A stretch of DNA of 64,000 nt from Owenia fusiformis (lineage: Eukaryota > Annelida > Polychaeta > Sabellida > Oweniidae): the NCBI GenBank assembly GCA_903813345.2, contig CAIIXF020000001.1:44781885-44845884 (forward strand), in the 5' to 3' direction. The notes below the pieces were generated by a model. It searched no databases. It was given only the letters and a program-made list of their open reading frames with translations, and was not told the origin of the DNA. Of the stretch, positions 7,775 to 62,734 are shown in pieces. Position numbers and translations under genes: made by a program. Positions within the stretch are counted from its first letter, which is position 1, and each line of letters starts with the position of its first letter.

Positions 7775-18911
<11,137 letters not shown>

Positions 18912-23448: not shown

Positions 23449-24099
23449 GTGATTAATTCATTAATAAAAAGCATCATGTCAACACTCAGCGAGGAAAATG
23501 TGGCAAAGTTTAACCAAAGGCAGAGGAAGGTGTCGTCATTGGCACGTGATGGAGCGACTGATTCGGCTGTCACAGGGCCGACAATCCGAAGAATCTCCCG
23601 GGCGGAAGCCCAGGGAGCCGGTGGCGGATTGGGAGTTCCTGGACGTCGGATATCTTCGTATGGACGCGAGCGACGACTCAGCTCATCAGACCGTAGCGGA
23701 GGATTAACAAGCCGCCCCGAACCCGTGCCCACAATCGTGAAAGTTCAGAACACGTATCAAATGGAGCCCACCACCAATAACAAGTTCAACCCATCTCGTG
23801 TAGAAAAGGTGGCGCTGAGTATTTTGGATACGTACCTCGACTGTGAGGATTATAATGGTAAAAAGATGTCGCATCTAAGCCAGACATTGTCAGAAATGAT
23901 AAAAAACAGAGTGAAAGAAATGAACTTCCCACGTTATAAAATAGTTTGTGTAGTCACCATCGGGCAGAATTGTGGTCAGGATTTTCGGTCCGCCAGTAGG
24001 TGTCTATGGGACAGGGACAATGATACATTTGCTACAGTCACATTCAAGAACAGCTCCTTGTTTGCAATTGCCAATGTGTATGCAACGTATTTTGAATGA
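23449..24099 (+). CDS. DYNLT5: Tctex1-domain protein, dynein light chain Tctex-type family (DYNLT5-like)
   Basis: Intronless frame of 216 codons. The first ~95 residues are Ser/Arg/Gly-rich and probably disordered. From about residue 100 a Tctex1 domain begins (VQNTYQMEP, then FNPSRVEKVALSILDTYL) and ends with NSSLFAIANVYATYFE at the very C-terminus, as the family does. The motifs PRYKIVCVVTIGQ and SRCLWD are family hallmarks and are closest in my memory to TCTEX1D1/DYNLT5. Such proteins act in or near dynein complexes, often ciliary; the exact partner is not visible here. Start: Met1 (MINSLIKSIM) or Met10 (MSTLSEEN at 23476); the second looks more natural. AATAAA lies 16 bases after the stop (24115-24120), with another near 24427. 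The opposite-strand frame here is a shadow. Confidence 0.85.
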   Translation: MINSLIKSIMSTLSEENVAKFNQRQRKVSSLARDGATDSAVTGPTIRRISRAEAQGAGGGLGVPGRRISSYGRERRLSSSDRSGGLTSRPEPVPTIVKVQNTYQMEPTTNNKFNPSRVEKVALSILDTYLDCEDYNGKKMSHLSQTLSEMIKNRVKEMNFPRYKIVCVVTIGQNCGQDFRSASRCLWDRDNDTFATVTFKNSSLFAIANVYATYFE

Positions 24100-30700: not shown

Positions 30701-33700
30701 CCCCAACTAGTGACGTCAAAGTAATAAAATAAGATTTTTTTTGTTTTCTTGATTTAAACCTACTTGTAAGTCAAGTTGCAGATCATCATTTGGCTCAAAG
30801 TCATGTTACGTATGTAACTTAGTTTGGGAACAGTTATATGTACATGTGTGTCCTAAATCCACTATTAAGTAATGAATAACTGACATGATTATTAACAATC
30901 AACAACTAAATGTTAATTCCACAATTTACATCATAAATAAATTACAGATCGAAAAAACAACATTGTTTTATTTTAAATAGTAATACACCTACCATTGGCA
31001 TTAGCAAGGACTCCTAGAGGTTTCAGACCCTCCGCCATTTTGTTGAGATATGACTGCTCTAAAACGACACCAGCGACACTGCGTAGGGGTTTGATGTGGT
31101 GTTCTAACACATCCATACTCTCTGTATACATCTTAGTCTCAAAATCTACAGATGGACATTCGCCTGGAAAGTAAAATGATCATTATAGCGGTTTCTCAAG
31201 ACCTATTCAAACAATATTCTAGATTTTTCTTGAACATATATTAGAAAATAATATGAACATATCTTTTATTGAATGATTTTATTTGTTTTCAAATATTATG
31301 AAACTTTAGCCAAAAAGTTATATAATAGCTGACTACTTACAAGCTCATATATCAAGAAAAGGTATACAATGTACTGGTTATATTTTCTTGACTATTGATG
31401 TAATGATATTACAAATGTATTTTTCATGTAAATGTTAGTAAAGAAGCACTTTTTAATAACTTTATTAAATAATTACCTAGAATTGCTTTTAAAACTGGTC
31501 TTAAAGTCGGCCAGGTATTTTTGAACATTGCAGTAACTAATTTCTTTCCTAACCAATCAGCAAATAGGACTTCATGGAATACAAATGGAGACCCCGTAGT
31601 AGCATCGGTTAATAGGACAAGAACATATGTCGCAGCTGCCATATGTGGCCCATTAAGACTCAAAAACTCATCCTTTGATTGGCCAAGTTTTTGGTGGTGT
31701 ATCACCTGAAAATATAAATGGCAAATAATGTTATCAACCACACGTGCAAAGGGTATCCCAGAAGTTCTGTAAAACTAATATTATGATTGACACCACTCAT
31801 CAGTTTTTTATCTAAAAAAACTTAAAGGCAGAATCAGATCTACAGGGGTGACAAAATTACAAGCAACATGTACAACTGACCTACCAATCTTTTCCTTACA
31901 ATTTCAGAGACAATTATATTAATTTCAAAAAGATTCATGATAATGATGATTGGTGAAGTTATCACAGATTCAAAGTGCAAAAATGGGTGAAAAATGTTTA
32001 ATTTCTCTCAAATAATAAGAATGGTAACCATTCTTATCGAAAAATAATACATTATTGTCAAAATCTTTAGTTTTCCTGAAATAAAGTGTGAACTTTGAGG
32101 TTTTTTGAAAATAGACATGACAAGGAATGATACGAGCCAGAAATATTCTAAAATTGAAACAATTTTTGGTTGGCCTGCTCGCTAGATCTGATTCTCTCTT
32201 TAAACAAACTCACATACAGAATGCAAGATTATTATCTGAATATTTTATCAAATTGAAAATTGCCTTAACATAAACCATAATTTCTTAACATAAACCATGC
32301 AAATTCATAAAGTTGATAAAACCATTGATGATTGTGTTTGCGTACACCATTGAAATAAACACAATAAAAAGAAAACAACCAACAACGACATATTTGCCTG
32401 TATAAGTATAGAAAATTTAGCTGTTCCCAAACACCAAACAATTAAGATCAAATACTTTCTTCAAACAAAATATTGATAAGTAAACTATGGATCAATTGGT
32501 TTTATGTCATTTGATATCGAACAAACAAATAGGGACAATAATAAATATTTCAAAATCTATATTTACACAAGGACTCAGCTATGTGGTGGGTTAAGGCTGG
32601 TGAGATAACTCTTGTTATGACTTTTGAGAGGTTTGCTTCAGATGAATTTGCTTAACATTTTGCCAGCTGGAGGATTGCAAGGATTTCATTCCATATTTCA
32701 ACTCATTATCACTCAGTAATGCCCACTTTTATGTATAAAAAAGTAAAAAATACCACCCGTAAACTTCCTTAATCCATTGTTACGAATATATAAGATGCTT
32801 AGGTTTCTCAATGTTAAGACCATGGGGTTCTACAGTCACATCATTTAACAATATTACGAAATCCAAACTGATTGTGCCAAATTGTGTTTTTTACAACTAA
32901 ATATAACAAAACAAGAAAATAAGCACAGATTGATATCATATTAAATACACTGATGCAAAAAAAGATATTAGAATTGAAATTTTAAGAAAAAGTCTGTAGA
33001 GTCTATGTATCTACAGATTCATCAGATTGGATGTTTCAATAGGTATGGAATTGTGCTTTCCTTGTTCAAGATAAACTCTTGTTCAACTAACATCTAAAGA
33101 TAAAAAGTGTTCATACCTGCAGGCCTTTCTTCAGGAGATCTTGCTTCAAGTTTTGAGCCAACCTCACATCAGCTGGATCATATACCAAATAAACACAATT
33201 TGGTCTTGAACGTTGAGTTCTAGACCGAAGATGCCAGTTGTCATTTAACTTATGTTCCTTATCTAATGTAGCTAGAATGTGTTGCATCACCTTCTTCCGT
33301 ACAACTCTACTATCAACCTGTAAATGGTTGATCATGTCCTGATCTGTCATGGACATTAAAAGGAACCCATCTACCATATATTCAGCCAGACTTTGCCTGT
33401 AGAACTCTTTAATGCCAAGTTTAAACAGCCATTCTTGAAGATCATTGTTACTCCATTGACAGATCTTTTTCTTTTTGTAATCTCCGGTGAATTCTTCCTC
33501 AGGAGTTTTTGGCTGAGGTGGAACGTTCATTGTTGCAATTCGATCTAAAGTTTCCATCAGGTTACCGACAGCAATTGAGCTTTTCTCCGCCAAACTTAAT
33601 TTTGCTATCGCTTGGCTAGTAAGATCTATAATATTAGAATACAACGGAGTGAATGCTTTTGGGATTTCCATATCCTCAGATGATGAATATAATACTGTTA

Positions 33701-34631
33701 AAATTGTGATGGAATTGGGGTCGGCTTTTTGTCTCTCAAGGACAGTTTTTGCTTCATAAACTGAGACAGGGCAATTCAGATAGCTTTCCGATATGATCAA
33801 AACAGCTGCCCTGCATCTTTCTACAGCTTCCATTCTTAGTGAGAACCATATAGGACTGTCTGTGTTTTTCTCATCCTTATCAAACCAGATGTCTTCTGAC
33901 AAGTTGTTTTCTTTTAATTGTTTTGTAGTCTCAACAACAAATTTTCTCTCAAGAAAACCAGCATCAGGAGAATATGAAATAAATATTGACTTCTTCATTT
34001 TCTTTTTAGGAGGGGGTGGGAGTGGTTTTGCAACTGATAACATTGTTGCCTCCGCCTTTCTTGCCTCCATTTTAACTTCTTTGATAAAACTAGATTCCTT
34101 TTGGCGAGAGTTTTTATTATTATATTTTTGCGCTGTATCAGGTTTTGCAAGATTGTCTTGATCCTGTTGTGGAGGTCTTGGAGAGATATTTCCATGTTCT
34201 TGTTTCAGTGGAGGCATTTCTATATTATTATGCTCCAATTTGATTGAGTCTCGAGTTTTCTGTCTGTTTTGTTTGTTCTTTTTTACCTTTGGATCAACAT
34301 CATTATGATTATCATCCACATTTTCCTTGTTGACTTTGTTTACCTTTTCTTTCATATTTTCTGCAATAATTTCTCCAACACTTGCATCCTTCATTTTGCT
34401 CTCTACTTTGTTCATGTTAGTGTTCTCATCAACTTGTTTCTTTTGGTCCACTTTTTTAAGTTCAATGTTCTGTTCATTTTGTCGTTTTTCATTCTCTTTG
34501 ATAGCGTCTAATTGTTTATTTTCTTCTCCATGCTTTTCTACCTTTTCGACTTCATCGGTATGACCTTGTACAGCGTCCTTTGTAGTTATAGCAACACTGC
34601 CTGACTGAACTGTGTCAGTCATTTTAGTCAT
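27761..34631 (-). CDS. Multidomain TIR-SAM-TIR-TIR protein, four exons
   Basis: Exons 34631-33117, 31705-31477, 31163-30993 and 28296-27761 join in phase (0, 1, 1) to 816 residues. Residues 1-210 are Lys/Glu/Asn-rich low complexity. TIR1 (~213-330) opens with SIFISYSPD. A SAM domain follows (~388-455: WSNNDLQEWLFKLGIKEFY). TIR2 (~478-582) starts CVYLVYDPADVRLAQNL and runs across the exon 1/2 join. TIR3 (657-~795) starts VFISYQWDMQSRVEDIRHNL. There is no signal peptide or membrane segment, so it is probably cytosolic. An in-frame TAA 15 bases before the ATG fixes the start. TIR domains either scaffold signalling or cleave NAD, and SAM domains oligomerise; SARM1 combines both but has ARM-SAM-SAM-TIR order. 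At the position I align with the NADase glutamate, TIR1 (VYEAKTVLE) and TIR2 (FHEVLFADW) have Glu, while TIR3 (NCIKDLTLAE) has Asp. Function unknown; domain calls rest on pattern reading. Confidence 0.88.
28297..30992. other. Intron 3 of the TIR gene, otherwise featureless
   Basis: 2.7 kb, strongly AT-rich. Apart from MITE family 4 copy 1, nothing supportable. Confidence 0.5.
30271..30478. mobile_element. MITE family 4, copy 1 (~208 bp), intron of the TIR gene
   Basis: Ends CCAGGCCCGTAGCCAGG and CCTGGCTAGGGGCCTG, with CAAGC beside both ends. Next to the left end is a long G run (30299-30317), mirrored by CCCCCC near the right end. The copy at 44847-45058 has the same ends. Confidence 0.75.
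31822..32203. mobile_element. MITE, 382 bp, intron 1 of the TIR gene
   Basis: Ends TTAAAGGCAGAATCAGATCT and AGATCTGATTCTCTCTTTAA, inverted. No frame. The remaining intron (32204-33116) shows nothing else. Confidence 0.75.
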
Positions 34632-35053
34632 GCTATAAGTCGTTTAATTCTTTTATATAAACATTAAAAATTAAATAACATGTATATCGTATGTCGACCG
34701 ATTTGGCCATCATCATGGTAACACTGTAACCAAGCATGTACTGTTCGGTAATCCGATAGAAGCAATCTAATTTGTTTAGTAAAGTATTTCTCAAACAGGC
34801 CTTTATTCTTCTGAAAGGGCTTTATTTGATTGGCTGTTCCATTCACTCCCGTTGCCAGATGATCATATTCCAGCGTTCTAAAACAAATTTTACTGTCAAA
34901 TCGCCATTATATTAAAACAATTTCAATATTCTTTATCTGAAATTAGTTATCAGATCACTGACAGTGAGGGCGAACGAAACAATGGCCGTTGTTGAAAAGT
35001 TTGTAAACTCTGGGAAGCTATTGCATTCTCCCCCCTCACTTGCATAAACCCAG
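34632..35053. other. 5' flank of the TIR gene, no gene seen
   Basis: Region expected to hold the TIR gene promoter (minus strand). No clear TATA or initiator element picked out. Confidence 0.35.
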
Positions 35054-37413: not shown

Positions 37414-37485
37414 TAGCAGAGCAAGGTTTCGATCCTCGGACCTCTGGGTTATGGGCCCAGCACGCTTCCACTGCGCCACTCTGCT
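37414..37485 (-). tRNA. Initiator tRNA-Met (CAT)
   Basis: A 72-nt cloverleaf on the minus strand. The acceptor stem pairs AGCAGAG with CTCTGCT, the D arm contains GTGGCGCAGTGG, the anticodon loop is CCCATAA within the GGG/CCC-type stem typical of initiators, and the T loop is ATCGAAA (A54-type, initiator-specific) rather than TTCGAAT. The sequence is nearly identical to vertebrate initiator tRNA-Met, with small changes in the T stem (CGAGG/CCTTG). No intron. It lies between the divergent TIR gene and SLC17A9-like gene. Confidence 0.96.
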
Positions 37486-37929: not shown

Positions 37930-40900
37930 ATGTCGGTTTCGTCTGAGGACAAGAAGTTACGACTTGATAAAGACGATTCTACTCCTGGGAAATACTGGGG
38001 CAGGTTTGTAGACTATTTTTCATATTCTTGATGAATAAGTTCGTGATGATATTTTGTTCAGTGCACAGGCACTGAAAAGAAAATCTAGAGTAGATTTCAT
38101 GGCCTGACTTTGTCGGTAGAACTTGAAAAATAAGATTTACCTGAAGATTAGGAGTCTTACTTACACTCTAGAGGTTAGAACACACATTTCAATGAAACCT
38201 TATCACCTTAGTTGCTTCAGCTAAAGATCATTTAGCACAATATCCAAGAGGTAAATTATGGATCGTGAAAATGAATGAGCAAGTTCCGGAAGTTTCAATA
38301 CGATAAATTACCAAACATTTGTGAAAATTGAATCTTTGTTCATTGATTTTATAATTTACACGTGTGTGTATTCGTCTACTCTTTGGTCTAAATTATAAAG
38401 CATCACAAACAGGTCCTAAAATATTAATAGACTAATACAGCAGACGACCCATTCATACTTTCCATGCAGCATTTCATTCAGACCAATAGTTCAACTGTAG
38501 ATCATGCACTTTTTCTATCTTAGAACAGGCCATCCTCCTCTGCCCTGTCCTAAACTCGTCTGCAAAAGAGACCACAAAACATTCTTTTCAAATATTTTGA
38601 TTATTTTTACATCAGACATTGTTGGATGATATGTCACAAAATTAAAGTACAAGGTCAATACAGTATTTCGTGAAAGAGGCAACGCCGTCCCGGAAGTAAA
38701 CACGAGGAAAATGGAAATGAAAATTGTGAAAATGGAACACAAATTTCAATCAAGTACTGTGCTTATGCTTCATCATGAACAAAACATAGCTGATATGGTT
38801 TCATTAAAATGTGTGTTCTAACCTCCTAATCTTCAGATAAATCTTATTTATCAAGTTCTACCGATGAAGTCAGGCCATGAAATCTACTCTACCACCCACT
38901 TTCAGTGTACCTGCAAGGAAAAAGGATTTCCCCCCATGTTGTATATGTATACCTTACACCTAATCTGGTATCTGATAATCGGAGCAACACAATGCTTTTT
39001 CATGTTTATAAAAATAAATTTTAGACAGTAGAATGCTCTAACCATAACGTGACCATGGAATGTACATTCACAACATATCTGTTCTTTGTATTGACATATT
39101 GTAAACCATAAATTACCATTAAGAGTCAAAATAATAGATATTTAAAAGAAAATTAAATCATAAAATACATGTAGTGACACTCATGAAAATTATAAAGGTC
39201 ACTATGAATGGCAGATGTTTTTGTCACTATATCCAATTCATCAGTCTTATTAATATGTTGATTTAGGATTAGTGAGAAATGGTAATTCAGTGTCTTATCT
39301 TTGCATGGTGGATTTTCATTTTGGTCAATTCTACTATCTGCTGCTGTGCCTCAAATTCAATGTCTTTTTCTTTTTAAATTTCAAAAGTTATCAAAATAAG
39401 AATGAAATAATACAGTTTGTCACTCTCTTTGAGCTCTCTTCCTACTAAAGTTTTCAACAGAAATATTATCTTTTCCCCTAGGATGACAAATGAAATAGAG
39501 GCTGTCTTTAATGCATTGTTTCATGCTTTTCTTGCTGCAAGAAGAAAAATAGTGAAAAGATTATTACTATAATCCATATGTAATCCCATGAAACGAAATC
39601 ACAAATTCAGATGTAGAGAGGCTGATCATTATTAAGAAGGTCATTTTGAATTTTTTGCGATTTGTTTTGGGCACATTTGATGTTTTGCTCTTCAAATTCT
39701 GTTTTTAATAGACTAGATGCGAATAGAAATAATCTTGATTTACGTCATTAAATATTCAAAATTCAGTCAAAGTGATGTCATATTTGAAATCTACATGTAA
39801 AAGTATGTCTAGAAAATGGTTTCGAAGATGGTTTATCAACTTTGAAAATTTAATTTTTTTTGAAAATGTGACTTCTAGCTCGGGTTGATTCCTCATAGAC
39901 CCCATGTTACAAAATCACAAAAAGTTAAATATCTTTTCTTGTATTGGACAGATAACATTTTCTTTTACTGGACATATTTTAATTTTCATAACTATTAGAT
40001 ACATAAGGGTTATATAAAAATTTAGCCACTACAACAGATGTAATTTAAGTTAAAGGGAACTTTCTAATATACCCGCCATGTTATCTGACCCGAACGAGCC
40101 ACCTGGTGGCGAAACTGGTAACTACCTACTCGCATCTGCGTTATTGTACAGTGATCTCCCCAGGATTTTTTCTCAAGTGGGTGCAAAATTCTCATTTTCA
40201 CAATTCACACTGAAATTGGTCAAAACATGCCTATATTCATGATTTTTCTCATTTACAAGTGGATGCAAATGGATTTTCAGGTGGGTGCAAGCCTGTTTTT
40301 AAAATTTCAGGTGGATGCTGCACTCACTTGCTTTAATGCTTGGCAGGTCACTGTGATATAACTGTTCTAGCTGTTACTTCTGTTCTTTCAGTATCTCTTT
40401 TATTTGTGAGAGTAAATGAATATCTCACATATATAACTGTTTGTTTATATTTGAGGTGTTTATGTTCATCCATGTTCAACAATAATACCTTTCTTCATCA
40501 TCTTCTAATTTGTTTACCCATGTTTCCATTATGTCATACATTTATGTAAACTTTATTTCAGAGACGAGAAGAGACTATGGGGTGCCTCTCTGTTTATAAG
40601 CTGTGCATCCCTCTACACAACACGTTCTGTTATGCCTATGAGCATTGTATCAGTAGCTAAAGATGTCCACTGGGACAAAGTACAAAAGGTCTTTAAATTT
40701 AAATTAGTCCAATTTTACATTAAAAATAGTACCCTGGTCAGTTTATAACCTGAGCCATATAATAAAGGAAAGGCCAGATATAATATCAGTGTGTCATTTT
40801 TATGTAAACTTAATTAATTTTATCTGGAGGGGTTCTGATCAAGCCCCTATCATTTTTGTTTATTACATCAGTACAGCAAATGAAGATTTTATTTTCAATC

Positions 40901-43900
40901 TATGTACATAAAGACACGCACATATCGAGAATTAGATTTTTATGTAAACTTAATTAATTTTATCTGGAGGGGATCTGATCAAGCCCCTATCATTTTTGTT
41001 TATTACATTAGTACAGCAAATGAACATTTATTTTTCAATTCATGTACATAAACAGACGTACATCTAGAGAATTTGATAGATCAGATTTATATCCAACAAA
41101 ATGAACTTCCCAGATTAAAACTAAAAGTCCACTTTTCCTGAGAAAAGTGAAGCAAAGTGAATTGAACAAATCAATAGAAATATGAACTCTAATCATCACA
41201 TCCTGAAACAATTTCCTTTTCCAGGGCACAGTGCTTTCAGCCTTCTTTTGGGGTTACTGCATGACCCAGGTTTTGGGGGGCTATCTGAGCGACCGTATAG
41301 GAGGTGATATAGTTCTCATCGTCTCAGCTACAGGTTGGGCTCTGATTACATTCTGGACTCCATTCATAATAAAGCTTTCATCCGATCAGCACACTGCAAT
41401 GGTTCTAGTTGTGATATCTCGAGTCCTTTTAGGTTGTTTTCAAGGTAAGTGATGACATATGTACTATTGTTGTTTATTTAATGTTTTACATTTTAAACAC
41501 AAAAAGCCCTTGCATACTTTATCATTTATTTGGTTTCCGCATGACAGTCATGTAAGATGAGATGATGATGATCACCTTTTGTTTCATGTGCAATATTCCC
41601 TGATCCAGATGTCCTTTGATTAATTCATTTTGACTGATCAATGATTCCCTATGATGGATCCTCAATGACCGATTCCCCATGTCTAATCACATATGACCAC
41701 TTTTCATAAAATATCACATATGTGCCTTATCAAATCATGCATTATGGTTTTTTTCAGGTGTACATTTTCCCAGTGTTACAAGCATAGTGTGTAGAAAAGT
41801 AAATGACCAGGAGAGGTCTCTAATATATAGCTTCATTACATCAGGGTCTCAGTTAGGGTAAGGACATGGAGGATATTGCCCTTAAATTAGAAAACTTTTG
41901 TTAGTGATTACTTCTCTTTAATTCTCTATGATGAACATTTGAACACATCTCTTAACACACTTCTGCATCTTTTATACACTGAGGTCATTCAATTTGTGTT
42001 TTTATTTAAAAACAGTATATTTTCACACTACCTGTTTTTAGGGATTCAAGATTGTTCGCTTTATTCACTCTTTAATATATTAAATCTGTTACAGTAGTGC
42101 TTATATTGACATTTTTTTTCGATTCATTAAAGTTTCAAAAATTTCAAGATTATTCTAACACAATGACAACTTTGAAAAAAGTTGAGATCTATGTCTTTTT
42201 CTCCCTTTAACTGGCAAGTAAATAGCTTGATTTCATGTTTTTGCAGGATATTGATATGTGGGAGTGTTGGCTCCATACTGTTAGAAAGATTTGGCTGGTC
42301 CAGTGTTTTCTATGTCTCAGGTGAGTAACCACCTTGATTCAAATCTTAAGTTTCTTTGTTCATTTAAAGGTTGAACACACAAAATATTGTTTTGCCATGC
42401 TTGATAAAGTCTCAGCTGCTCCAAATATGGAAAAAGAAACATCTTTTCAGGAATATTGAATTTTCCTTATAATATGAGAATATAATATGATATATAATAT
42501 GTACACATATGTATACACTTCTGTTTGGATTTTTGAAATTAATGATTACATGTCTATATCTCCTCAAGTATGTTTAATGAATGAGAATGAAATATGATGT
42601 AAACTTCTGGAGTTGAAGATTGTGAAAAGAGAATTTTCGTGTTCTATTGAAATCAATAATTTAACAATATCAGTCATAAAAATTGGATGAAAGGAAAACA
42701 GAACTTGTACTACCTCTTATTATATTTCAGGATGTGCAGGTATTTGTTGGGTGTTTTTCTTAAAGTATTATCTTGTGGCACAACAAAGAAAAAAACAAAT
42801 AGTTTTATCAATGAAAGACAATATCGTAGCAGGTGAAAAATCTCACACAGATTCTGGTGCAGTACCTTGGTTATTGTTCTTCAGAAAACCTCCATTTTGG
42901 TAAGTTAAAATATTTACATTTTAATATACATGTACTATCAAATTCTTGAGCTGATGAGCTTTTTGTGGTTCTATTATATTAGAGCTCTTCTATTATTTTT
43001 TTGTGAAAATTTCAGTAAAATGATATTTTTGTTGTAAAGTACGATATTATAATAAATAAATTTTACTTGACTACAATTGTTGACATTTGGATATCTTACA
43101 CAAAACTAATTTTACATTGTATCAAATTCCTTTTATTTTTTCCAGGGCAATCATAGTTGCACATTTCTGTCATACCAATGCTTTCTTCATCTTATTCTCA
43201 TGGCTCCCAACCTATTTCCATGACAACTTCCCTGATGCTAAGGTAAGCTGTGTATGGCATATACAATATAAGCAGCTGTGTATGGCATATACAATATAAG
43301 TAGTTTTGCCTCAAGAATGTGTACCCCTCCCTCTGTATTTCACACCCAACGTAACAGATGTGTTGGAAGTGAAGTACAGGGGCATGCACAGTCTTCAAGC
43401 AAGACTATAATATAAGCAGCTGTGCGTGAGGTGTTTAAGGTAGAAACAGAGATAGAAATTGTTTTATTTCCCAAATTTTGCCTTGATTGGTATTTTTCCA
43501 CCTAATATCTCATTCTTTGTTATGCCTATATTCCAATAATCCAAAGTATCATTAGTTATTACATACTATTATAGGAAATGCAGAGATTTTGATTTACCAT
43601 ACACAATGTTTTTAATGAGCATTCAATAAGTCATATGTAATATCATATTTCCTTTTCTTTGGTAGGGTTGGGTATTTAATGTGGTCCCATGGATTGTGAC
43701 AATACCCAGTGCAATACTTGGTGGTCATCTTGCCGATTTGTTAATAAGAAAAGGTAAGTTTAAAACTATTAATTGAATGTGCTCATGTAGGAGGGGAGTT
43801 TACATCTTATATTGGTGATAAGAAGTTTTACTGTGTTACTTATGAATTTTCAATTAAAGGTGCAACAAAAACTATAGACAAGTCGAGCATAACTCTCAAA

Positions 43901-46900
43901 ATTATTTGCAATTTTTTTTACATTTTCCATGTTAGATTTATTTTCTAATAAGAGTCTGATAGTTCCTACTTTATTTCTGTATAATCTTTAGAGATTTAGG
44001 AGATTATCTTATCAATTTAAATAACATGCATCTTTTATTTTTAATAACTTCCATATCTGATCAGATTTCGCTTTTGTTTTTCATAAAACATTTTTTTCGA
44101 TCTTTCACAATTTCAAAGTAATTTCATATTCAGTTTTCATACAAAAGTATAGTGCATAAAATATACAGGCTATGATATCCTCTTTAGTCTTTGTTGCCAC
44201 TTTAAAATGAATGACCGATGTCTGAGATATAAAAGATGTCTTTTAGTTTTGAAATTTTTTTGCATTGGTACCAGTCGAAATTCTGCTGCAGTTGAAATAA
44301 ATTTCTTTTCACCTTTCAGGATACAGTGTTACATTTACCAGAAAGTTCTTAGAGGTAAGTCTACTATAGTCTTCTGAGAAATTTAGAAATGCCTCGTCAA
44401 ATGTGTAATCTAGGGAACATTTCCGGAAATGAAGATATGGTTCAGACTTCAAACTATTGTCCTTTTAATACGAAGCCATAAAAGCTATGAATGTTCTGGT
44501 AATTACACACCACTGACTTATTTATTCTTAGACATTTTACCTTTATGAATGCATACCTCTAACACTTTTCTTACTCATACCTTAATCGCTATTTGAAAGA
44601 ATGAATAAGCATAAAATCATGCAATTGCTAAATTGACTAGTTATATGTACATGATTAAGGGGGGGGGGGGCATTCAATCTCTCAGATATGTACCTGTTAA
44701 GGACAGATTATTTTAATTTGTATCTTTTTATTATTGATCATTTCAGAAATTCATATGAAATGCATACCCATTGATCGTCAAGACCTTGGAGACTCTATTT
44801 TCCAAGCAGATAGTCTATGCACCTTAATATGCTGTGTGCTATCTTCAGGCCTGTAGCAAGGGGGGAGTTCGATGGGTACGACATTCAACATTACGTAAAG
44901 GACCGTGTTTCTTTACAGAATGTTTTCAATAATTGATTTAAGAAAAAAACATTGTTGAATTCAGTTCACCATATCGATACCAATCCTTTGTAAAAAATGA
45001 AACCCCAAGGAATTTTCCAAAAAGTGAACCCCCTTGGCAAATCCTGGCTACGGGCCTGTTCTTGTACTGAAAAGTGAATAGATTTTGAAGTTGCATGTAA
45101 ATATGAAGCATATGGATCAGCATTCGGAAATTGCATTGTCAGTTGCTGCATTCTGCCTGATTTGTCCAGTGCACACCGAAACACCCTGAAAACGGTAAAG
45201 TCAGATACCATTGTCACAAATGGAGGACGTAACCATGGGTTCAACTCATGGTTTCAACTCTTCGCCAATCACTTGGTTCTCATTTCATGGGACCTTATCA
45301 TCTTTTGTGCATGTATTATGCCTTTGTGATGGTGTATTATATGAAATCCCAATTTCCAACTTTACTGACTTAACCATTGTCAGGGTGTTCCGGTACTGTG
45401 TGAATACATTTGAAATTAAACCATGTAGGCTTTTGCTACAACAAATGAACAATTGTACATTGGATAGTTTCATGATGTCACAGATTTTAGCATTAGGTCT
45501 AAAAACAAATCAACAGTAGTGTACGCTGATGCTGTTATTGTAGTTAGAATGTACCAATGACATAATATCCAAAAGGTGGCATGATTCACCAAACTTCTTT
45601 ATTAAACCCATGTTTTCAGACCATCTGTGTGCTTGGAATGAATTTTGGTATGCTATCAGTCACACATTGTGACAACATACACAGTGCTGTAGTGTGTATG
45701 ATGATAACTACGGCAGCATCAACTTTCCATATAAGCAGTTGCAATCTCAATGCTGGAGATATTGCCCCAGAATATTCTGGTTCTGTCTTTGGTAAGGACT
45801 AGTGAATGTATAACTTTGTCCCTTGTATAATTTTGTGTGCTATATGTTTACTGTGTGGATTAGAAGATAAGGCCGGTGTAAAAAAGTAGATGTTTAACAT
45901 ACCGCCACATTTACTTTAAACATCATAAAAAGCAGGCCCATATGGCACTTTGGAAAAAAACTGATTATAAAATGGGTGGCAACGTTCTTTCTGCATTACA
46001 CTACACATACTTGGGGTGTCTAACATACACCAATTGGGCAAAGTCCTGGGAAAGTCCAATGGAGTCTCATGAGATCCCACACAATGGATCTACGAGTAAT
46101 AATCCCCCATCATGCCTAATTGGTGTATATTGAGGTTTTCTGCTTACTTCTTATATTTGCACAAAGGACTTGGAATGCAACCAGGTTTTGTTTTAAAAAC
46201 ATGTCCCTTGAATGGTTCCATCATTCAAGGGCATTATTTTGAAAGTTTTTCGGAGAGACATTTTATTGATAGTACATTCTCAATAATATTGACGGTATTA
46301 TTACATGGAAAAATATACCTGAAAGTAGGCTTTACCATCATTTGTATGTCCAGGCATCACCTCAGCAAAAATACACTGCTTTTCAATATTACACTCCTAA
46401 TAAATCTTACATTAAGTTCCTTTGTTTCATATACATGTAGATACAGGGATTTAATGCAGGACACTTTTGTGCTTACTTTGACATGAATCACAGCTTACAA
46501 ACAAATCTGTCTCTCTCTCTATATATGCTCTATGTTGCGGGTTGCAGATTTGGAAGACCAGTCTAGGGCACATTCACACTCAAATAAGCTGCAGCTATCA
46601 TAGACAAGATAAGCTTCCTATGTTATTTCATTTAGAAAATAATTGGTTGAAACCTTTCATTTCTGTTACAGACTCTCTCCCAGGTCCCTTTGGCCATCTG
46701 CCTGCTGCTCATTGGACAAAATTTACATAGTTACACTAACAGTGTCATACTTATGACTATCGCAGTTTCTGCATCCTCATTGCACAAGGCTGGGGTCATG
46801 GTGAACTCTACCGATATTTCACCCAGACATCCTGGTTCTGTAATGGGTAAGACCTGCAGAAGATTTCCTTCAGAGCATGCATGGCCCTTCACTATTTCTG

Positions 46901-49630
46901 CTTTTGGTTTGCATATTGAAATCTATATTTTGATAGAATTTCAAAATTGCTCCTAAAACTGCTAAATGGTCATGTTTTTTCAAAAGAGTTGGGGAGAAAA
47001 ACCAGGGAATTTTGGTCAGTCAAAATGATAGTATGTTACCGGTAGTTGGAAAAGTTTATTGAAGAAAAATTATTTTTTATATGATTTCATGATATTCCTT
47101 TTTCACTGAATTCTGTTTATAAATTGCAATCACTGGATTCTTGTCGAGGGATTAGCAAGGGAAAGGTGACAAAAGTGTTCATTGTTAGAAAATATAAATC
47201 TATAGCAACCTTGGTTTTTCTGAAAACATCATTTATTGCAATCAACGGAAGCTTGAAATAAGTGGAATGTTTGTCTGTCAATCAATGGTCACGTGTACAT
47301 ATGTACATGGATGCATTTATTTTGCGGAATTACTGATTGGGTCAATCTTTGAAGGCAATTAGTTTAGTACATGTGTACTTACTAACATTTTTAATTAAGC
47401 CTAACAAATACTCCTTCTTCATAAACAACTAATCATGTTATGTTTTTCTTTTAAATTGAGGTGATGAGGGTGATATGTACCTCCGTTCAACATTACTCCA
47501 ATGAGATCTTTGACTCCAAATCCCAACCTCATAGAAAATCCTGGGCCCAATATTATTTTTATGTAGAAGTTTTACGCAAAAAATCTGTCCTTTCAGACTA
47601 TAAGTTTGGTGGGTGTATCTGCTTGTCTAGTTGCATTAGCTGAAGCGAAGAACTATCATGTAGCAATGACTTTATTGACCATGGCCACTAGTTTTCAAGG
47701 GTTCCATAACAGTGGCAGTTTCATGAATCCACAAGACATAGCACCTAGGTTTGCAGGATCTGTCTTTGGTAAGGGATCAGCAAAATAGATACTAAATAAG
47801 GACTTTAAGTTATTCCATCTGAGTGTATGCAAAATTTAAGATAAGATGTTACGGTATGAGACAAATACTATAGTATTTGTAGTACCAAGGAGTTAGGAGA
47901 GATATTCCCATTTACATTCAGCTTTTTTCAAGGTTACTTCTACTGACACATTTAATTTATTTTTACATTATATTGATTGTGGAGGGCCTGACACATGTAC
48001 TGTAAGGATTGGGAGATGTTTGCTTTATTTGTTTAATATATAGCTTTTGTTCTTATTTGACTACTTGCTTTGATAACTTACAGGGTGGGCCAAAATGTCC
48101 ATTATTTGTATTCTATAACTTAAATAATACATAAACAAGATTGCTAGAGATGCAGCAATCACTTTCACAATTATTCTTAAAATGCGATAAATCTTCAGAG
48201 GTTACTGAATGAAATATATAAAAGAGCTGTGGGGTCTTAATGAATTCATACAGTTCAACGGATATTAGAATAACAATCTTACACTGTTATAAGTCATGCC
48301 TCAAGTAATGGTGCCAGAATGACATTTTAACCAGTCTGTCAAAGAGACAAATAGATAAGATGATTGGGACTGGGAAGGGTAAGGTGATCGGGAAAATCTG
48401 CATATACATACTGTATGCACAGTATATAAAGATCATTACTCTTGGAAGAAAGATCAGTAAGGTGCAATATTGAGCCTACAAATGATTAAACTTGCTTTTT
48501 CAGTGATCTTTATTCTGTTATTATATTTTGCTAATCTTCAAACAAAAAATACAACATTTGAATTATTCATGTTTCAATCAGAATTTGGCATACCTGTTCC
48601 ATTTTTTTGTGTTTGAACCAGTCCATCTAATCTCCCAATATTGGTCTCAATACCCTCCCAATGATTCAATGTTTAACAGAAATATAAAATACTCAGTAAT
48701 AATTGTGGCACCTTACATAATGTGTCTCATCGACAGATTGTTTAACATGTTTAAGAAGTTTATCTGGTTCCAACATAAAAAAAATTACTGTAAAATTGTA
48801 ATGCCTTGAAATACTGCCTTGAAACAGGAGGCTGGATTCTCACCCCTATTGACTGTTGACATTACTCATTTAAATACCACTATGTCTATATAAGTATGTC
48901 ATTTTGGGGTTTATTCATAGATTGCTGCATTCCCTGTGAAAATGTTAGCAAATTCAAAATATGGTCGTTTTTTGGCTCACCCTGTATAATGTATGATTAT
49001 TTGGCTATATCCGCTGCATTAAATATATTCCAAATGACAAATTAATTATGGCAGACATCATGCGTTTTCAACTTTTTTATAAAAATGTAAATAATAGTAA
49101 TAGTTTTAATTTATATAAACATGATCTTATATATTTAAAAAAAATGTCATGAAAATGATCTTGTTTTCTATATTTTGTGTAATCTACAAGTACCTGGCAC
49201 ATGTATGTTAAATACTTGAAATCATTGTCTTATTTCTTCTTGTTTCTTTCAGGTGTTATGAACATGGCAGGTGCTATTCCAGGTAGGCAGTTTTGTGGAC
49301 ACTTTTTTAGCCTGTTTTTTGAACCGTTATTAACTTGTGTTTGGTAGTATTTAAAGTTATTTCATTGTTTTGAAGAAGTGGTCTCAACCATGGGCTTTCA
49401 ATTTAGTTGAAAGCCCATGTCTCAACCTCATATTTTTCTGAAAGATTTCCTTCCGAAGGCCTGATATCCTATATTTCACTATATTTTCAGGCTTTATTGG
49501 AGTATACATCGCAGGATATATCCTGGAAACGACAAAAAGTTGGGCAGCTGTATTTAATCAAACTGCTGTAGTGACAACAATAGGCTGGTTGACATTCATG
49601 ATATTTGGATCAGGAAAGAAGATAGTTTGA
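37930..49630 (+). CDS. SLC17A9: SLC17A9-type vesicular transporter (MFS) with three alternative copies of one exon
   Basis: Exons: 37930-38003, 40562-40688, 41225-41444, 41758-41857, 42247-42320, 42731-42899, 43146-43242, 43666-43753, 44320-44354, one of (45620-45791 / 46672-46846 / 47597-47768), 49253-49282, 49491-49630. All borders are GT-AG and phases agree, giving 441 residues (human SLC17A9 436). Conserved blocks include YTTRSVMP, TVLSAFFWGYCMTQVLGGYL, DRIGG, FSWLPTYFHDNFPDAKGW and FNVVPW. SLC17A9 is the vesicular nucleotide transporter that loads ATP into secretory vesicles, a 12-helix member of the SLC17 anion family; substrate is inferred from family. Exon 11 is only 30 nt. Introns carry MITEs, a foldback element (intron 1), a 141-bp duplication (intron 2) and a 904-bp mariner-like element. 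Confidence 0.94.
38070..38907. mobile_element. Foldback element with ~110-130-bp arms, SLC17A9-like intron 1
   Basis: The arm CACTGAAA...GTAGAGTAGATTTCATGGCC...AACACACATTT(C/T)AATGAAACC is present at the left (38070-38200) and inverted at the right (38799-38907). The left arm has ~19 extra bases around TCTTACTTACACTCTAGA. The central ~600 bp codes for nothing I recognise. Confidence 0.85.
39711..40138 (-). mobile_element. MITE family 3, copy B (inverted)
   Basis: Reverse complement of the 16360-16770 element, end to end (TAGATGCGAATAG ... CTACTCGCATCT). It lies in SLC17A9-like intron 1. Confidence 0.82.
40796..41078 (+). repeat. Two-copy ~141-bp tandem duplication
   Basis: TTTTATGTAAACTTAATTAA through GTACATAAA.. 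occurs at 40796 and again at 40938 with few differences (TGGAGGGGTTCTGATCAAGC vs TGGAGGGGATCTGATCAAGC). It lies in SLC17A9-like intron 2. Confidence 0.85.
43246..43300 (+). repeat. Short direct duplication just after the exon 7 donor
   Basis: GCTGTGTATGGCATATACAA followed by TATAAG occurs twice in tandem (~30-bp period) immediately after the GTAAGC donor of SLC17A9-like exon 7. Unlike the PARS2 arrays it does not include the exon end. Confidence 0.7.
43854..44205. mobile_element. MITE family 2, copy 2
   Basis: Ends TTAAAGGTGCAAC and GTTGCCACTTTAA; same ends as 14059-14431. SLC17A9-like intron 8. Confidence 0.6.
44847..45058. mobile_element. MITE family 4, copy 2
   Basis: Ends AGGCCTGTAGCAAGGGGGGA and TGGCTACGGGCCTG; interior AACCCCCTTGGCAAATCC matches 30271-30478. 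SLC17A9-like intron 9. Confidence 0.75.
45135..45420. repeat. Diverged inverted repeat before exon 10a
   Basis: ACCGAAACACCCTGAAAACG (45176) followed by TAAAGTCAG is mirrored by CTTAACCATTGTCAGGGTGT and TCCGGTACTG (45370-45400). Possibly a decayed MITE; the 102-codon frame across it is not supported. Confidence 0.45.
45620..45791 (+). CDS. SLC17A9: SLC17A9-like alternative exon 10a
   Basis: 172 nt, starts in phase 0 after a TTTTCAG acceptor and ends in phase 1 before GTAAGG. It encodes TICVLGMNFGML at its start and GDIAPEYSGSVFG at its end, covering a transmembrane helix and the conserved N..DIAP..GS.FG segment. It is homologous to exons 10b and 10c and fits the same neighbours. It lacks the HNSG motif of 10c (has HISS). 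Confidence 0.85.
46672..46846 (+). CDS. SLC17A9: SLC17A9-like alternative exon 10b
   Basis: 175 nt, one codon longer than its sisters, phase 0 to 1, acceptor GTTACAG and donor GTAAGA. It encodes TLSQVPLAICLLLIGQNL at its start and STDISPRHPGSVMG at its end. It is the most diverged copy in the conserved loop (DISP for DIAP, VMG for VFG), yet has no stop and intact splice sites. Confidence 0.83.
47597..47768 (+). CDS. SLC17A9: SLC17A9-like alternative exon 10c, closest to the family form
   Basis: 172 nt, phase 0 to 1, acceptor CTTTCAG and donor GTAAGG. It encodes TISLVGVSACLVALAEAKN at its start and FHNSGSFMNPQDIAPRFAG near its end. The FNHSG..VNIQDLAP..AG stretch of human SLC17A9 aligns best with this copy, so it is the likely ancestral exon. 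Confidence 0.88.
48081..48984. mobile_element. Mariner-like non-autonomous element, 904 bp
   Basis: CAGGGTGGGCCAAAATGTCC at the left and TTTTTTGGCTCACCCTG at the right, TA on both sides. No recognisable transposase. It lies between exon 10c and exon 11 of the SLC17A9-like gene. Confidence 0.8.
49389..49419. mobile_element. 31-bp palindromic insertion with perfect 7-bp duplication
   Basis: CATGGGCTTTCAA, five bases, TTGAAAGCCCATG, flanked by TCTCAAC on both sides (49382-49388, 49420-49426). SLC17A9-like intron 11. Confidence 0.75.
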
Positions 49631-54502: not shown

Positions 54503-55087
54503 TTATCTTTTCTTTCCTTTTTTCACCACAACACTCCATCCATCCTCATCAATGTTTTTGTCTTTGGTTTGCATATTGGTGTCATTCAGTTCTGATTGAC
54601 CATTATTCATGGAGGCTGGCCCAGCTTTGATAGTAAGGTCAAGTTGCTGCATCTCACTCACTATATCACTAGGAGTATAACATTCCATAAGATCATCCCC
54701 TTCATCTGAAATGTCAGGTTTTTGAACACTATTTTGAATTGCAGCTTTTGGAAGTGTTCCCAATTCTTTTAATGCATCTGCTCCTTTTCCATTGCTGCAC
54801 ATAGCATAGTGTTTACAAATAGTCTTTGCAATACAAGTAAGACTTCCATCTTCTGCAACCATGTCAAATTCATTGTTTGTAATGGCTCCAATGAACTCTT
54901 CAAGTTCGAAATCTTCAATGTCTTTGTTGTCTTGAAACCACTGGTATACGGCATCTACCATCCATTTTGATTTTTCGACACTGTTGATACCACCAAAGCC
55001 ATGCTGAATGGCCAGCTGCAAAGCAGTCCAGCTGTCAAATACACGAGAAATGGCAGAATAAAAGATGGGGATCCCATTAGAAGCCAT
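54503..55087 (-). CDS. TSR2: Pre-rRNA-processing protein TSR2
   Basis: Intronless frame of 194 codons (human TSR2 191). TSR2 is a chaperone that escorts eS26 (RPS26) and is needed for 20S pre-rRNA maturation to the 40S subunit. The family core is clear: SWTALQLAIQHGFGG (residues ~19-33), EKSKWM, an acidic helix with LEEFIGAITNNEFDMVAEDG and the signature C-terminus DEDGWSVVVKKGKK. The middle is acidic and low in conservation, as usual. It lies 180 bp downstream of the BLCAP stop on the same strand. An AG just before the ATG (TTTTATAG) could be a splice acceptor for a 5' UTR exon. The lack of introns could mean loss or an old retrocopy. Confidence 0.93.
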   Translation of the reverse strand: MASNGIPIFYSAISRVFDSWTALQLAIQHGFGGINSVEKSKWMVDAVYQWFQDNKDIEDFELEEFIGAITNNEFDMVAEDGSLTCIAKTICKHYAMCSNGKGADALKELGTLPKAAIQNSVQKPDISDEGDDLMECYTPSDIVSEMQQLDLTIKAGPASMNNGQSELNDTNMQTKDKNIDEDGWSVVVKKGKKR

Positions 55088-55266
55088 ACTCTTCTATAAA
55101 ATTGGCAAGTACTCGCTGACTAGGTTGATATAATATTGCACTCTATACGGAGCCTTTAATATTTTTGATGCAGGGTAGTATTGCAAATATACCACAGAAT
55201 AGGCTATATGAACATGTAATGATGGAAGCCTGTATGGAAGACTATCAAGTGATTTGTATCGCCTCA

Positions 55267-57839: not shown

Positions 57840-58740
57840 ATAACACACATAAGAAAGGCCACCATTTTCAAAATGGTTGCTCACTAGCCAAGTTGTCATC
57901 AGAAGTAATATGCTTTTTTTTCTAGCACTCACAACCAAATATGAAAAAATCGCTCCACTACTTTTCGAGTTATAGTAAAATACTTTAAAATGTTGGCCAT
58001 TTTTCAAAATGGCCGCCTTCTACCAAAAGTGTCATTAGACAGTGTGCCATGCTTATAGTATTCACATACCAAATATGAACAAAATCGCTCCACTACTTTT
58101 CAAGTCACAGCAAAAATTGTAAAATAACAAGTAAAGGCCGAGTAAAATACGTTTAAATGGCGGCCATTTTTCAAAATGGTCACCTTCTACCAAAAGTGTC
58201 ATTAGACAGTGTACCATGCTTATAATATTCACATACCAAATATGAACAAAATCGCTCCACCACTTTTCAAGTTATAGTAAAATACGTTAAAATGGCAGCC
58301 ATTTTTCAAAATGGCCACCTTCTACCAAAAGTGTCATTAGACAGTGTGCCATGCTTATATTATTCACATACCAAATATGAACAAAATCGCTCCACTACTT
58401 TTCGAGTTAAAGTAAAATACGTTAAAATGGCGGCCATTTTTCAAAATGGCCGCCTTCTACCAAAAGTGTTATTAGACAGTGTGCCATGCTTATAGTATTC
58501 ACAAACCAAATATGAACAAAATCACTCCACTACTTTTTGAGTTATAGTAAAATATGTTAAAATGGTGGCCATTTTTCAAAATGGCCGCCTCCTACCAAAA
58601 GTGTCATTAGACAGTGAGCCATGCTTATAGTATTCACATACCAAATATGAACAAAATCGCTCCACTTCTTCTTGAGTTACAGCAAAAATCGTAAAATAAC
58701 GAGTAAAGGCCGCCATTTTTCAAGATGGCTGCCATGTGCT
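57840..58740 (+). repeat. ~135-bp tandem repeats, each with a GGCGGCCATTTT hairpin
   Basis: About six units. Each has GGCGGCCATTTTTCAAAATG followed by GCCGCC, a near-perfect palindrome, then CCAAAAGTGTCATTAGACAG and ATGAACAAAATCGCTCCACT. Starts of the CCAAAAGTGT word at ~58023, 58190, 58325, 58461 and 58595 give the period; the first interval carries ~32 extra bases. Confidence 0.88.
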
Positions 58741-60078: not shown

Positions 60079-62734
60079 GGAGAACAGTTTACCTGTGACC
60101 TTCTCATAACTCTGTATCCTGCAATTACAGTATCAAGACACAAATTATGTGTTATTCCAAACATATCAAGTTTTTTTACATGGGATACCCTTTTATCTCC
60201 CTATGCAATGATTACTAAGAAAGTTTATTTTTTACTGTCATTTGAAAATAATCCCCTATTAGAAATCTTATGTATGACCATGGGCTCTATGGTATGACTT
60301 ATAAAGTTAAAGTTTTAATTATTGTAGTCATCTAAAAATTCATATGCCCAATGGTATATATTGATATTGTAAAATGTATACTTCTTTAAAATAGTTAATC
60401 TCTTTCTCTAGTTGAAGAAGATTAGAATTTGATAACAGAGGCATTATACAACAGCATTTGTAAACAAGTCAAGGCATTGTTTTGAGAACTATCATTGAAG
60501 AAAATATTTTATAATCCTTAGTCCTTTGAGATATTTAAAGGGTAATATGCAACATGTTAATGCAAACAATTAAGTCAAAGCATTGTTTATAAATGCTATA
60601 ATGTAAGAATGTATTGTATAATCATAAGTTCTTTGAAAATTTTAATCTCTTTCTTTTTGTCAAGATGAAATAGATTTTGCTTTGATTGGATTCTTTACTG
60701 GGAAAAAGGAAAATCAAAGTTGAAAAATGTTGTTGTATTACAAGGAAAGAACATTAGAATGTCAAAAATAAAGCCAGCGAATGGTTTTGGGTTAGAGCCC
60801 TTTTTTCAGTTTTGAACATTTTACATTGAGATCAGATCCCTAAAATTGATTTTTTCTAAGTTACATCTTCTAAATTGAATATTGTTTTTGAAATTCTTTT
60901 TATAATACTTTTCTTTACTAGGAAAAGGAAAATCAAAGTTGAAAAATGAATTTTTTATTTTTGTTATATTTCACTCCAACTGCATTAGCATTCTATAGGC
61001 TACAGAGGCTCACCAAACCATCAAATGCAAATAACCGTAAAATGTTGAAATCATGAAATAATTTAGTGATTTTTTTTTCAAATGAGTGCGCCATGTTGTA
61101 TATTACAAGGAAAGAACATTAGAAAGTCAAAAATAAAGCCAGTGAATGATTTTGGGTAAGAGCCATTTTTTCAGTTTTGAATATTTTACATTAAGAGTTC
61201 AGTAGGACCAATCCCTAAAATTGCTTTTCTCTTAGTTACATCTTCCAAATTGAATATTATTTTTGAAATTATCTTTATAATACATTTCTTAACCAAGAAA
61301 AGGGAATATATAAGTTGAATTAAAAATGAATTTTTTATTTTTGTTATATTTCACTCCAACTGCATTAGCATTCTATAGGCTACAGAGGCTCACCAAACCA
61401 TCAAACGCAAATAACCGTAAAATGTTGAAATCATGAAATAATTTAGTGATTTTTTTCAAAAGAGTGTGCCATGTTGTATATTACAAGAAAAGAACATTAG
61501 AAAGTCAAAAATAAAGCCAGTGAATGATTTTGGCTAAGAGCCGTTTTTTCAGTTTTGAATATTTTACATTAAGAGTTCAGTAGGACCAATCCCTAAAATT
61601 GCTTTTCTCTTAGTTACATCTTCCAAATTGAATATTATTTTTGAAATTATCTTTATAATACATTTCTTTACCAGGAAAAAGGAAAATCAAAGTTGAAAAA
61701 TGAATTTTTTATTTTTGTTATATTTCACTCCAACTGCACTAAAGCATTCTATAGGCTATAGAGGCTCACCAAACCATCAAACGCAAATAACCATAAAATG
61801 TTGAAATCATGGAATAATTTAGTGATTTTTTTCTAAAGAGTGGGCCACCTTGTATATTACAAGGAAAGAACATTAGAATGTCCAAAATAAAGCCAGTGAA
61901 TGATTTTGGGTAAGAGGCATTTTTTCTGTTTTGAACATTTTACATTGAGTTCAGTAGGACCGATCTCTAAAATTGATTTTATTTAAGTTACATCTTTCAA
62001 ATTGAATATTGTTTTTGAAATTCTTTTTATATTACCTTTCTTTACCAGGAAAAAAAGAAATTAAAGTTGAAAAATGATTTTCTTTGTTTTTGTTAACTTG
62101 CTTAAGCTTGATGACATCACAATATTATATTATATCCTACCTCTAGTTATTTTTGAGACTATTGTTGCTTGGTTTAAATGAGTCAACACAAACCACTGTT
62201 CATCTTTCTTGTTTTGTGTTGTGGTGTCCAAAACATTGAATTGCTCTTCTGGCTAAAATAACAGAAAAATCAACATATCTGTTTGAAAGGGTTTTGACCA
62301 CTGGGTTATACTTTGACAATTATAGTAATGATACTTTTAAGTGCATTCTCACAAATTATCATTATACATATTATGTTATATTATTACAAAATAGCTACAT
62401 GTTATACACAATGACACCATGAGGCATATATCAGGATTTACAAGAGCAAAATCCAATCAGACTATAAACTTAATGAAATATTGAGGAATCTGTTCAATCA
62501 AATGAAATCCAGTATTAGAACAATTTACATAGATACTAGAAATTTCTTCTTTTAGGTTATGCCTGGAACTAGTAACAATAATTATTTGAACATTAATATC
62601 AAACCTGATGACGATTCTAGTCTTGGGGAAAGCTTGGGTGGATGGAGGCAAGCTAACACTTTCACACAGCCTTTTACTATTTCAGCATCATTTGGATCGG
62701 ACTTTGTACAGCACTTTGATGGCGAGTTGTAATG
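60072..62734 (-). CDS. Candidate 3' exons of an unrecognised gene
   Basis: Three stretches on the minus strand have splice-like borders and agreeing phases: 62734-62605 (after CTTTCAG; begins HYNSPSKCCTKSDPNDAE), 62248-62141 (after TTTTAGCCAG; EEQFNVLDTTTQNKKDEQWF then VLTHLNQATIVSKITR, donor GTAGGA) and 60118-60072 (after ATTGCAG; YRVMRRSQVNCSPL then stop). Joined they give ~95 residues of ordinary composition. I recognise no family, no start exon is identified, and the 60-62 kb intron would hold the 375-bp repeats. The evidence is only open frames plus splice sites, so this may be chance. Confidence 0.3.
60690..62085. repeat. ~375-bp tandem repeat, ~3.7 units
   Basis: The words ATTACAAGGAAAGAACATTA, CCAACTGCATTAGCATTCTA and CTCACCAAACCATCAAA recur at ~370-380-bp spacing (starts near 60735, 61100, 61472, 61855). 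Outer units are more diverged than the middle two. No frame. Confidence 0.88.

Follow-up and report, generated by a model that had tools for sequence, protein, structure and literature searches.

Three Tandem Copies of One Exon, Very Likely Mutually Exclusive, in an SLC17A9-Like Transporter Gene of the Annelid Owenia fusiformis

INTRODUCTION

What does a transporter gene do with three different versions of the same internal exon? The question is raised by a stretch of 64,000 nt from the polychaete Owenia fusiformis (NCBI GenBank assembly GCA_903813345.2, contig CAIIXF020000001.1, positions 44,781,885 to 44,845,884 of the forward strand), here called the window, in which a gene of the SLC17 family carries three consecutive copies of one exon: 10a, 10b, and 10c. 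Proteins of this family fill vesicles with anions, glutamate and nucleotides among them, and channels and carriers are known to be tuned by mutually exclusive exons. An earlier note on this DNA, made from its letters, had proposed that each message uses a single copy. In this study, we followed up this proposal computationally, looking at the gene model, the relationship and constraint of the copies, the ways in which one of them might be chosen, and the part of the protein that they encode.

RESULTS

Gene model and family assignment

The transporter gene lies on the plus strand between 40562 (start of exon 2) and 49630 (stop), as delimited by its joined open translation; exon 1 and its start codon could not be placed, and the gene model begins at exon 2. 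Constitutive exons 2 (40562-40688), 3 (41225-41444), 4 (41758-41857), 5 (42247-42320), 6 (42731-42899), 7 (43146-43242), 8 (43666-43753), and 9 (44320-44354; 12 residues) join in an open translation and are followed by the three variable exons, by constitutive exon 11 (49253-49282; 30 nt, phase 1 to 1, 10 residues), and by the terminal coding exon 12 (49491-49630), whose stop codon TGA occupies 49628-49630. With any single variable exon the frame stays open for 416 residues (isoforms a and c) or 417 (isoform b); residue numbers below refer to isoform c and take the beginning of exon 2 as their origin. The donor of exon 2 (AAG/GTCTTT) is odd after the GT, yet the junction agrees with the family alignment.

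Isoform c matches the Pfam family MFS_1 (E 1.8e-52). A search of the PDB with it matched 10 sequences, none of them an SLC17A9 chain: human sialin, which aligns with residues 32-413 out of 416 (E 1.1e-50), is followed by VGLUT2 (4e-44), VGLUT3 (1e-40), and a D-galactonate transporter (7e-28). Membership in SLC17 is borne out by all three isoforms, each of which aligns over most of its length to solved SLC17 proteins in the PDB. Identity amounts to 34% for the sialin segment, 30% for the VGLUT2 segment, and 42% over 414 aligned columns for human SLC17A9, the last being a value for an approximate SLC17A9 sequence. We therefore consider the gene likely to be SLC17A9-like, that is, vesicular nucleotide transporter-like, a name that leans on this approximate sequence. 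Searches for relatives elsewhere were uninformative: viral contigs gave 5 pattern matches, 0 of them confirmed; an SLC17 alignment search of genome contigs gave, among 207 candidate stretches, 1 Chloroflexi transporter (22% identical); and the genome carrying that transporter gave 7 matches, mostly partial.

The introns of the gene hold repeats of their own. Two copies of a 140-bp unit (90% matches) lie in intron 2 at 40796-41077, and inverted repeats form the borders of 45175-45394 in the intron upstream of 10a (30 nt, 87%) and, likewise, of 48079-48986 in the intron downstream of 10c (17 nt, 94%). Both stretches are possible small DNA transposons, and no second copy of either was found in the window (blastn, E 1e-3).

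Other features of the window

The GC content is 0.32-0.37. Open frames with recognizable domains include a Tctex-1 family domain at 23434-24096 on the plus strand (E 2.3e-30) and, on the minus strand, a TIR_2 domain at 27764-28339 (E 3.2e-16), TIR_2 (E 1.8e-8) together with SAM_2 (E 2.7e-6) at 33114-34643, a pairing that we take to be reminiscent of SARM-like proteins, and a TSR2 pre-rRNA-processing domain (Pfam WGG; E 4.2e-24) at 54506-55093. A reverse transcriptase fragment at 13058-13849 (minus strand; RVT_1, E 4.2e-9) is probably a retroelement remnant, and a tRNA match of 57 bits (Rfam RF00005) at 37414-37485 (minus strand) may be a gene or a tRNA-derived repeat. Tandem repeats are found at several places. 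Arrays of a nearly identical 57-bp unit occupy 8511-9160 (11.4 copies) and 10095-10663 (9.9 copies); the unit length is a multiple of three (3 times 19), which leaves an open frame of 239 codons on the minus strand (8478-9194), probably repeat sequence with no gene in it. Further arrays have units of 378 bp (60727-62095, 3.7 copies) and 135 bp (57929-58687, 5.4 copies), and a 145-bp unit of near-identical consensus stands in two tandem copies at both 6070-6356 and 6662-6947.

Three intact copies of one exon

Exons 10a (45620-45791; 172 nt), 10b (46672-46846; 175 nt), and 10c (47597-47768; 172 nt), all on the plus strand, each run from phase 0 to phase 1. Exon 10a comprises 57 codons and the first base of a split glycine codon, 10b has one extra codon, placed in the loop between TM9 and TM10, and 10c is the copy nearest to the solved SLC17 proteins. 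All three are intact, with AG acceptors, GTAAG donors (GTAAGG or GTAAGA), and stop-free frames, so that the coordinates, lengths, phases, splice sites, and open frames given in the earlier note stand. Openness alone is weak evidence, because many comparable stretches are also open: 226 of 3579 overlapping intronic stretches of 172 nt, and 704 of 18238 stretches taken from both strands of the window.

The relationship among the copies is much more telling. Used as a tblastn query against the window, each copy finds the two others (E 6e-8 to 3e-4), with the next matches at E of at least 0.67. Their proteins are 33-35% identical (18/55 aligned codons for a-b, 19/57 for a-c, and 20/57 for b-c), 0 of 2000 shuffles equal the score in each pair, and, compared with the corresponding segments of sialin, VGLUT2, and an approximate SLC17A9 sequence, each copy singly outscores all 1000 of its own shuffled versions. 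Chance is thus excluded by similarity combined with matching phase and matching splice sites, and the proposal that these are three diverged copies of one SLC17 exon is upheld. A profile built from the three copies necessarily returned its three source sites, and no other match had an E value below 2.8 among the stop-free six-frame stretches of at least 15 residues in the whole window; neither this profile nor tblastn revealed a fourth copy in the window.

Age of the copies and constraint on the encoded segment

Identity between the copies differs sharply by codon position. At first, second, and third positions it is 0.42/0.71/0.36 for a-b, 0.42/0.70/0.30 for a-c, and 0.40/0.63/0.23 for b-c, where about 0.26-0.29 would be expected by chance from composition. 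Second positions are identical in 39/55, 40/57, and 36/57 cases and third positions in 20/55, 17/57, and 13/57 (a-b, a-c, and b-c; Fisher p of 5e-4, 3e-5, and 2e-5, respectively). As the a-c alignment is gapless, freedom in the alignment does not explain this pattern, and third positions near saturation next to second positions far above chance point to an old duplication with constraint on the encoded segment. With third positions so close to saturation, the cluster would be expected to occur across a broad clade.

Formal evidence of constraint comes from a codon model with equal times. In this model, a three-way star that we judge reasonable for copies within one locus, although the star is still a simplification, omega is 0.113, 0.155, and 0.115 for 10a, 10b, and 10c at a time of 8.86, that is, at saturation, and omega = 1 is rejected for a (p 7e-7), b (2e-5), c (8e-7), and a with b (2e-6). 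When times are left free, the data are few codons in a saturated comparison and three branch times reach the bound of 6.05; under two gap placements, neutrality is then not rejected for a (p 0.09, 0.14) or b (0.08, 0.12) and is weakly rejected for c (0.03, 0.02).

Because the free-time model rejects neutrality for neither 10a nor 10b, recent disuse of one copy has to be weighed: 10a, 10b, or both may have been used formerly and now be spliced in rarely or never, abandoned too recently to have gained a stop or a frameshift. An open frame does outlast neutral drift quite often (starting from 10c, it is retained with a probability of ~0.60 at 0.3 changes per codon and ~0.19 at 1.1), and 10b deviates at several family positions, for example with S at A352 and P at A356. 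Against such a retirement, both 10a and 10b retain acceptor, donor, phase, and a fitting length, the equal-time model rejects neutrality since the duplication for each copy and for both jointly, and two recent retirements, both still clean, would be required. We hold it to be unlikely that either copy is retired; as read from the DNA, every copy has retained family features.

How one copy would be chosen

The copy lengths are of the form 3n+1, so two or three copies in one message break the frame and lead to an early stop. This occurs in 4 of 4 multicopy combinations, with the stop lying 149 nt (a+b), 158 nt (a+c and b+c), or 321 nt (all three) before the last exon junction, and nonsense-mediated decay is expected for such messages under the usual 50-55 nt rule. 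If all three copies are skipped, the stop comes merely 24 nt ahead of the last junction, and this message might escape decay, its predicted product being truncated near the start of TM9. It had been claimed from these lengths that only one copy can be used per message. The early stop of multicopy messages stands, and mutually exclusive use is the simplest reading of it; yet the frame argument restricts which messages are useful without proving exclusive splicing, and the all-skipped message might, as noted, survive.

The same 4 of 4 combinations, with stops 149-321 nt ahead of the last junction, are what would be seen if 10a and 10b were mainly poison exons that, added to 10c, shift the frame and send messages to decay, thereby tuning the amount of transporter. 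Poison exons, however, need no constraint on their protein, whereas 10a and 10b have stayed alike at second codon positions, still carry the family motif, and each resemble sialin and VGLUT2, and we regard this explanation as very improbable. That the copies reflect a chance resemblance, or an assembly error setting haplotypes or paralogues side by side, is next to negligible: nothing speaks for it beyond the open intronic stretches of this length, which are not rare, and against it stand the tblastn and shuffle results given above, third positions closer to chance than haplotypes would be, the lack of a second copy of the gene's other exons in the window (isoform c as query; exons 9 and 11 are too short for safe recognition), and the lack of any mutual blastn match at E 1e-3 between the introns around the copies.

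Returning to the reading in which one copy is used per message, we looked for ways in which the choice could be made. Neither splice-site incompatibility nor a distance from donor to branch point below 50 nt was found; all borders are GT-AG with donors of an ordinary type, and the introns between the copies measure 880 nt (10a-10b) and 750 nt (10b-10c), which leaves no steric squeeze. The docking/selector pairing that the earlier note suggested looking for did not emerge: when docks of 24 nt, taken in steps of 6 in intron 9 or the last intron, were compared with each intercopy intron, the pairing energies of the three layouts were equalled or bettered in 2, 3, and 2 out of 24 shuffled controls, none being significant in a scan that could miss pairing that is weak, structured, or visible only comparatively. 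Each variable exon has a donor that agrees with the consensus at 5 of 8 positions, compared to 5 to 8 for the nine remaining donors of the gene. Pyrimidines make up 0.65 of the acceptor tract in 10a, 0.76 in 10b, and 0.59 in 10c, compared to 0.65-0.94 in the ten others, so that 10c has the lowest share and 10a ties with the lowest of the others. This strength of donors and acceptors is consistent with regulated exons that would need splicing factors but also with little-used exons.

Two further complementarities were considered and set aside. The acceptor tract of 10c is complementary over 15 nt (93%) to 44699-44713, and the first part of 10a over 14 nt (86%) to 44800-44813; both matches are of ordinary size in a list of 20 inverted repeats drawn up without a chance control. 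An alternative last exon formed by intronic polyadenylation was likewise discarded, with one AATAAA (46399, between 10a and 10b) and no further support; between 10b and 10c there is no AATAAA or ATTAAA.

The encoded segment and the substrate pocket

Exon 10 presumably encodes a segment that begins inside TM9 and continues through a luminal loop, TM10, and the loop between TM10 and TM11 to the start of TM11; these helix borders are putative and follow the alignment. The three copies agree at nine of its 57 positions (T304, H340, N347, D350, I351, P353, G357, S358, and V359), and 21 of the 57 differ among all three. It had been supposed that the changed parts include the conserved N..DIAP loop. 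This is not the case: N347, D350, I351, and P353 are the same in every copy, the motif, in the loop between TM10 and TM11, reads N..DIAP in 10c and 10a, as in sialin and VGLUT2, and N..DISP in 10b, and N..DI.P is the best conserved part of the segment, with the changes surrounding it, among them those at two positions aligned to Ser411 and His414 of sialin.

The copies are not equally close to their relatives. Thirteen residues are invariant across 10c, sialin, and VGLUT2, of which 10a retains 8 and 10b retains 6. Isoform c also scores highest against sialin (best-domain bits of 175.6, compared to 160.9 for b and 159.1 for a) and against VGLUT2 (whole-sequence bits of 154.4, compared to 146.6 and 145.7). 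The claim that 10c is closest to human SLC17A9 is not clearly borne out, since the segments score alike against an approximate SLC17A9 sequence (59.5 for a, 51 for b, and 57 for c).

A link to substrate binding comes from sialin, whose cryo-EM structure shows NAAG touching both Ser411 and His414; Ser411 also lies within the docked sialic acid site, and alanine at Ser411 reduces sialic acid transport while alanine at His414 reduces NAAG transport (PMC11116495). The residues aligned to this pair, with no gap between them, are F/P in 10c, N/A in 10a, and M/S in 10b. Because 21 of 57 positions differ in all copies, differences at the pocket positions are unremarkable in themselves; they are suggestive of an altered pocket among the predicted isoforms, and selection for a change of the pocket is unproven by these residues.

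DISCUSSION

Our analysis indicates that this SLC17A9-like gene very likely contains three mutually exclusive, tandemly duplicated exons, one of which would be used in each message, giving isoforms that differ in the segment from TM9 to TM11. Exon 9 would be spliced to one copy and that copy to exon 11, and messages with two or three copies would hit a stop early and be removed by nonsense-mediated decay. Since the splice sites are compatible, the spacing leaves no steric squeeze, and docking/selector pairing went undetected, the copy would be chosen by protein splicing factors together with elements in exons or introns. The three resulting proteins would be alike except from TM9 to the start of TM11. 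As the swapped segment supplies two substrate contacts in sialin, the isoforms most likely differ in substrate preference, affinity, or transport rate, and their use probably varies by tissue or stage. More tentatively, and with a good deal less confidence, one could imagine that each isoform of this single gene carries a cargo of its own, one of them, say, nucleotides and the others different organic anions, in which case splicing would set the content of vesicles by cell type.

Vertebrate SLC17A9/VNUT, SLC17A5 (sialin), and SLC17A6-A8 (the VGLUTs) belong to the same family as the gene described here, and to our knowledge the human SLC17 genes have a single copy of the exon 10 segment. We found no report of mutually exclusive exons in SLC17A9 or another SLC17 gene in the open-access literature, while supplements, subscription journals, and the Drosophila catalogue ncomms3460 could hold one; the term "SLC17" is absent from the main texts of PMC9741552 and PMC5740500. 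For human SLC17A9, some alternatively included exon, left unspecified, has been described in pancreatic cancer (PMC5462735), and PMC12165946 names SLC17A9 solely in a reference. On the invertebrate side, PMC7943599 treats a putative Aplysia VNUT as unvalidated and states that VNUT is functionally characterized only in humans and mice, so that as of that source (2021) no function had been measured in the VNUT-like branch of invertebrates.

Three natural variants would be a ready-made experiment on substrate choice in the SLC17 family. If only rates or stability differ, the locus would be an ordinary, though new, example of its kind.

Parallels are found in other solute carriers. In SLC12A1 (NKCC2), variants A, B, and F of exon 4 code for part of the membrane domain and confer different affinities for ions; they belong to an unrelated transporter family, affect a different helix, and have been validated by RNA and by transport assays. 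SLC25A3 and SLC39A14 have two exon copies each. Like the gene studied here, SLC12A1 has three copies of its exon, a third mutually exclusive exon being mentioned in PMC9741552, and SLC25A3 and SLC39A14, of other families again, are likewise solute carriers with mutually exclusive exons (PMC5740500). The insect Dscam1 clusters reach the same outcome, one array exon per message, with docking sites and selector sequences (PMC8042237), and differ from the SLC17-type cluster in that no significant pairing of this sort was found here.

The broader catalogues of mutually exclusive exons place these parallels in context. Human and Drosophila clusters, like ours, consist of adjacent, internal, homologous exons in a common frame and of near-equal length, break the frame on joint inclusion, and can encode a segment within a folded membrane domain (PMC5740500, PMC9741552). 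Similar sequence, common frame, and similar length serve as the sequence criteria for such exons (PMC5740500), which are reported to be enriched in ion transport genes and mostly ancient (PMC9741552). Frame-breaking lengths occur in 377 of 629 clusters (60%) of the human atlas and are thus typical, not required; the same atlas lists 5 clusters with incompatible splice sites, 57 with possible steric interference, and 484 that are ascribed to other mechanisms (PMC5740500). Such clusters are defined by RNA; the candidate cluster in O. fusiformis was recognized in genomic sequence and agrees with the sequence criteria. It very probably represents a known type of system that is, as far as our literature search reached, new for SLC17.
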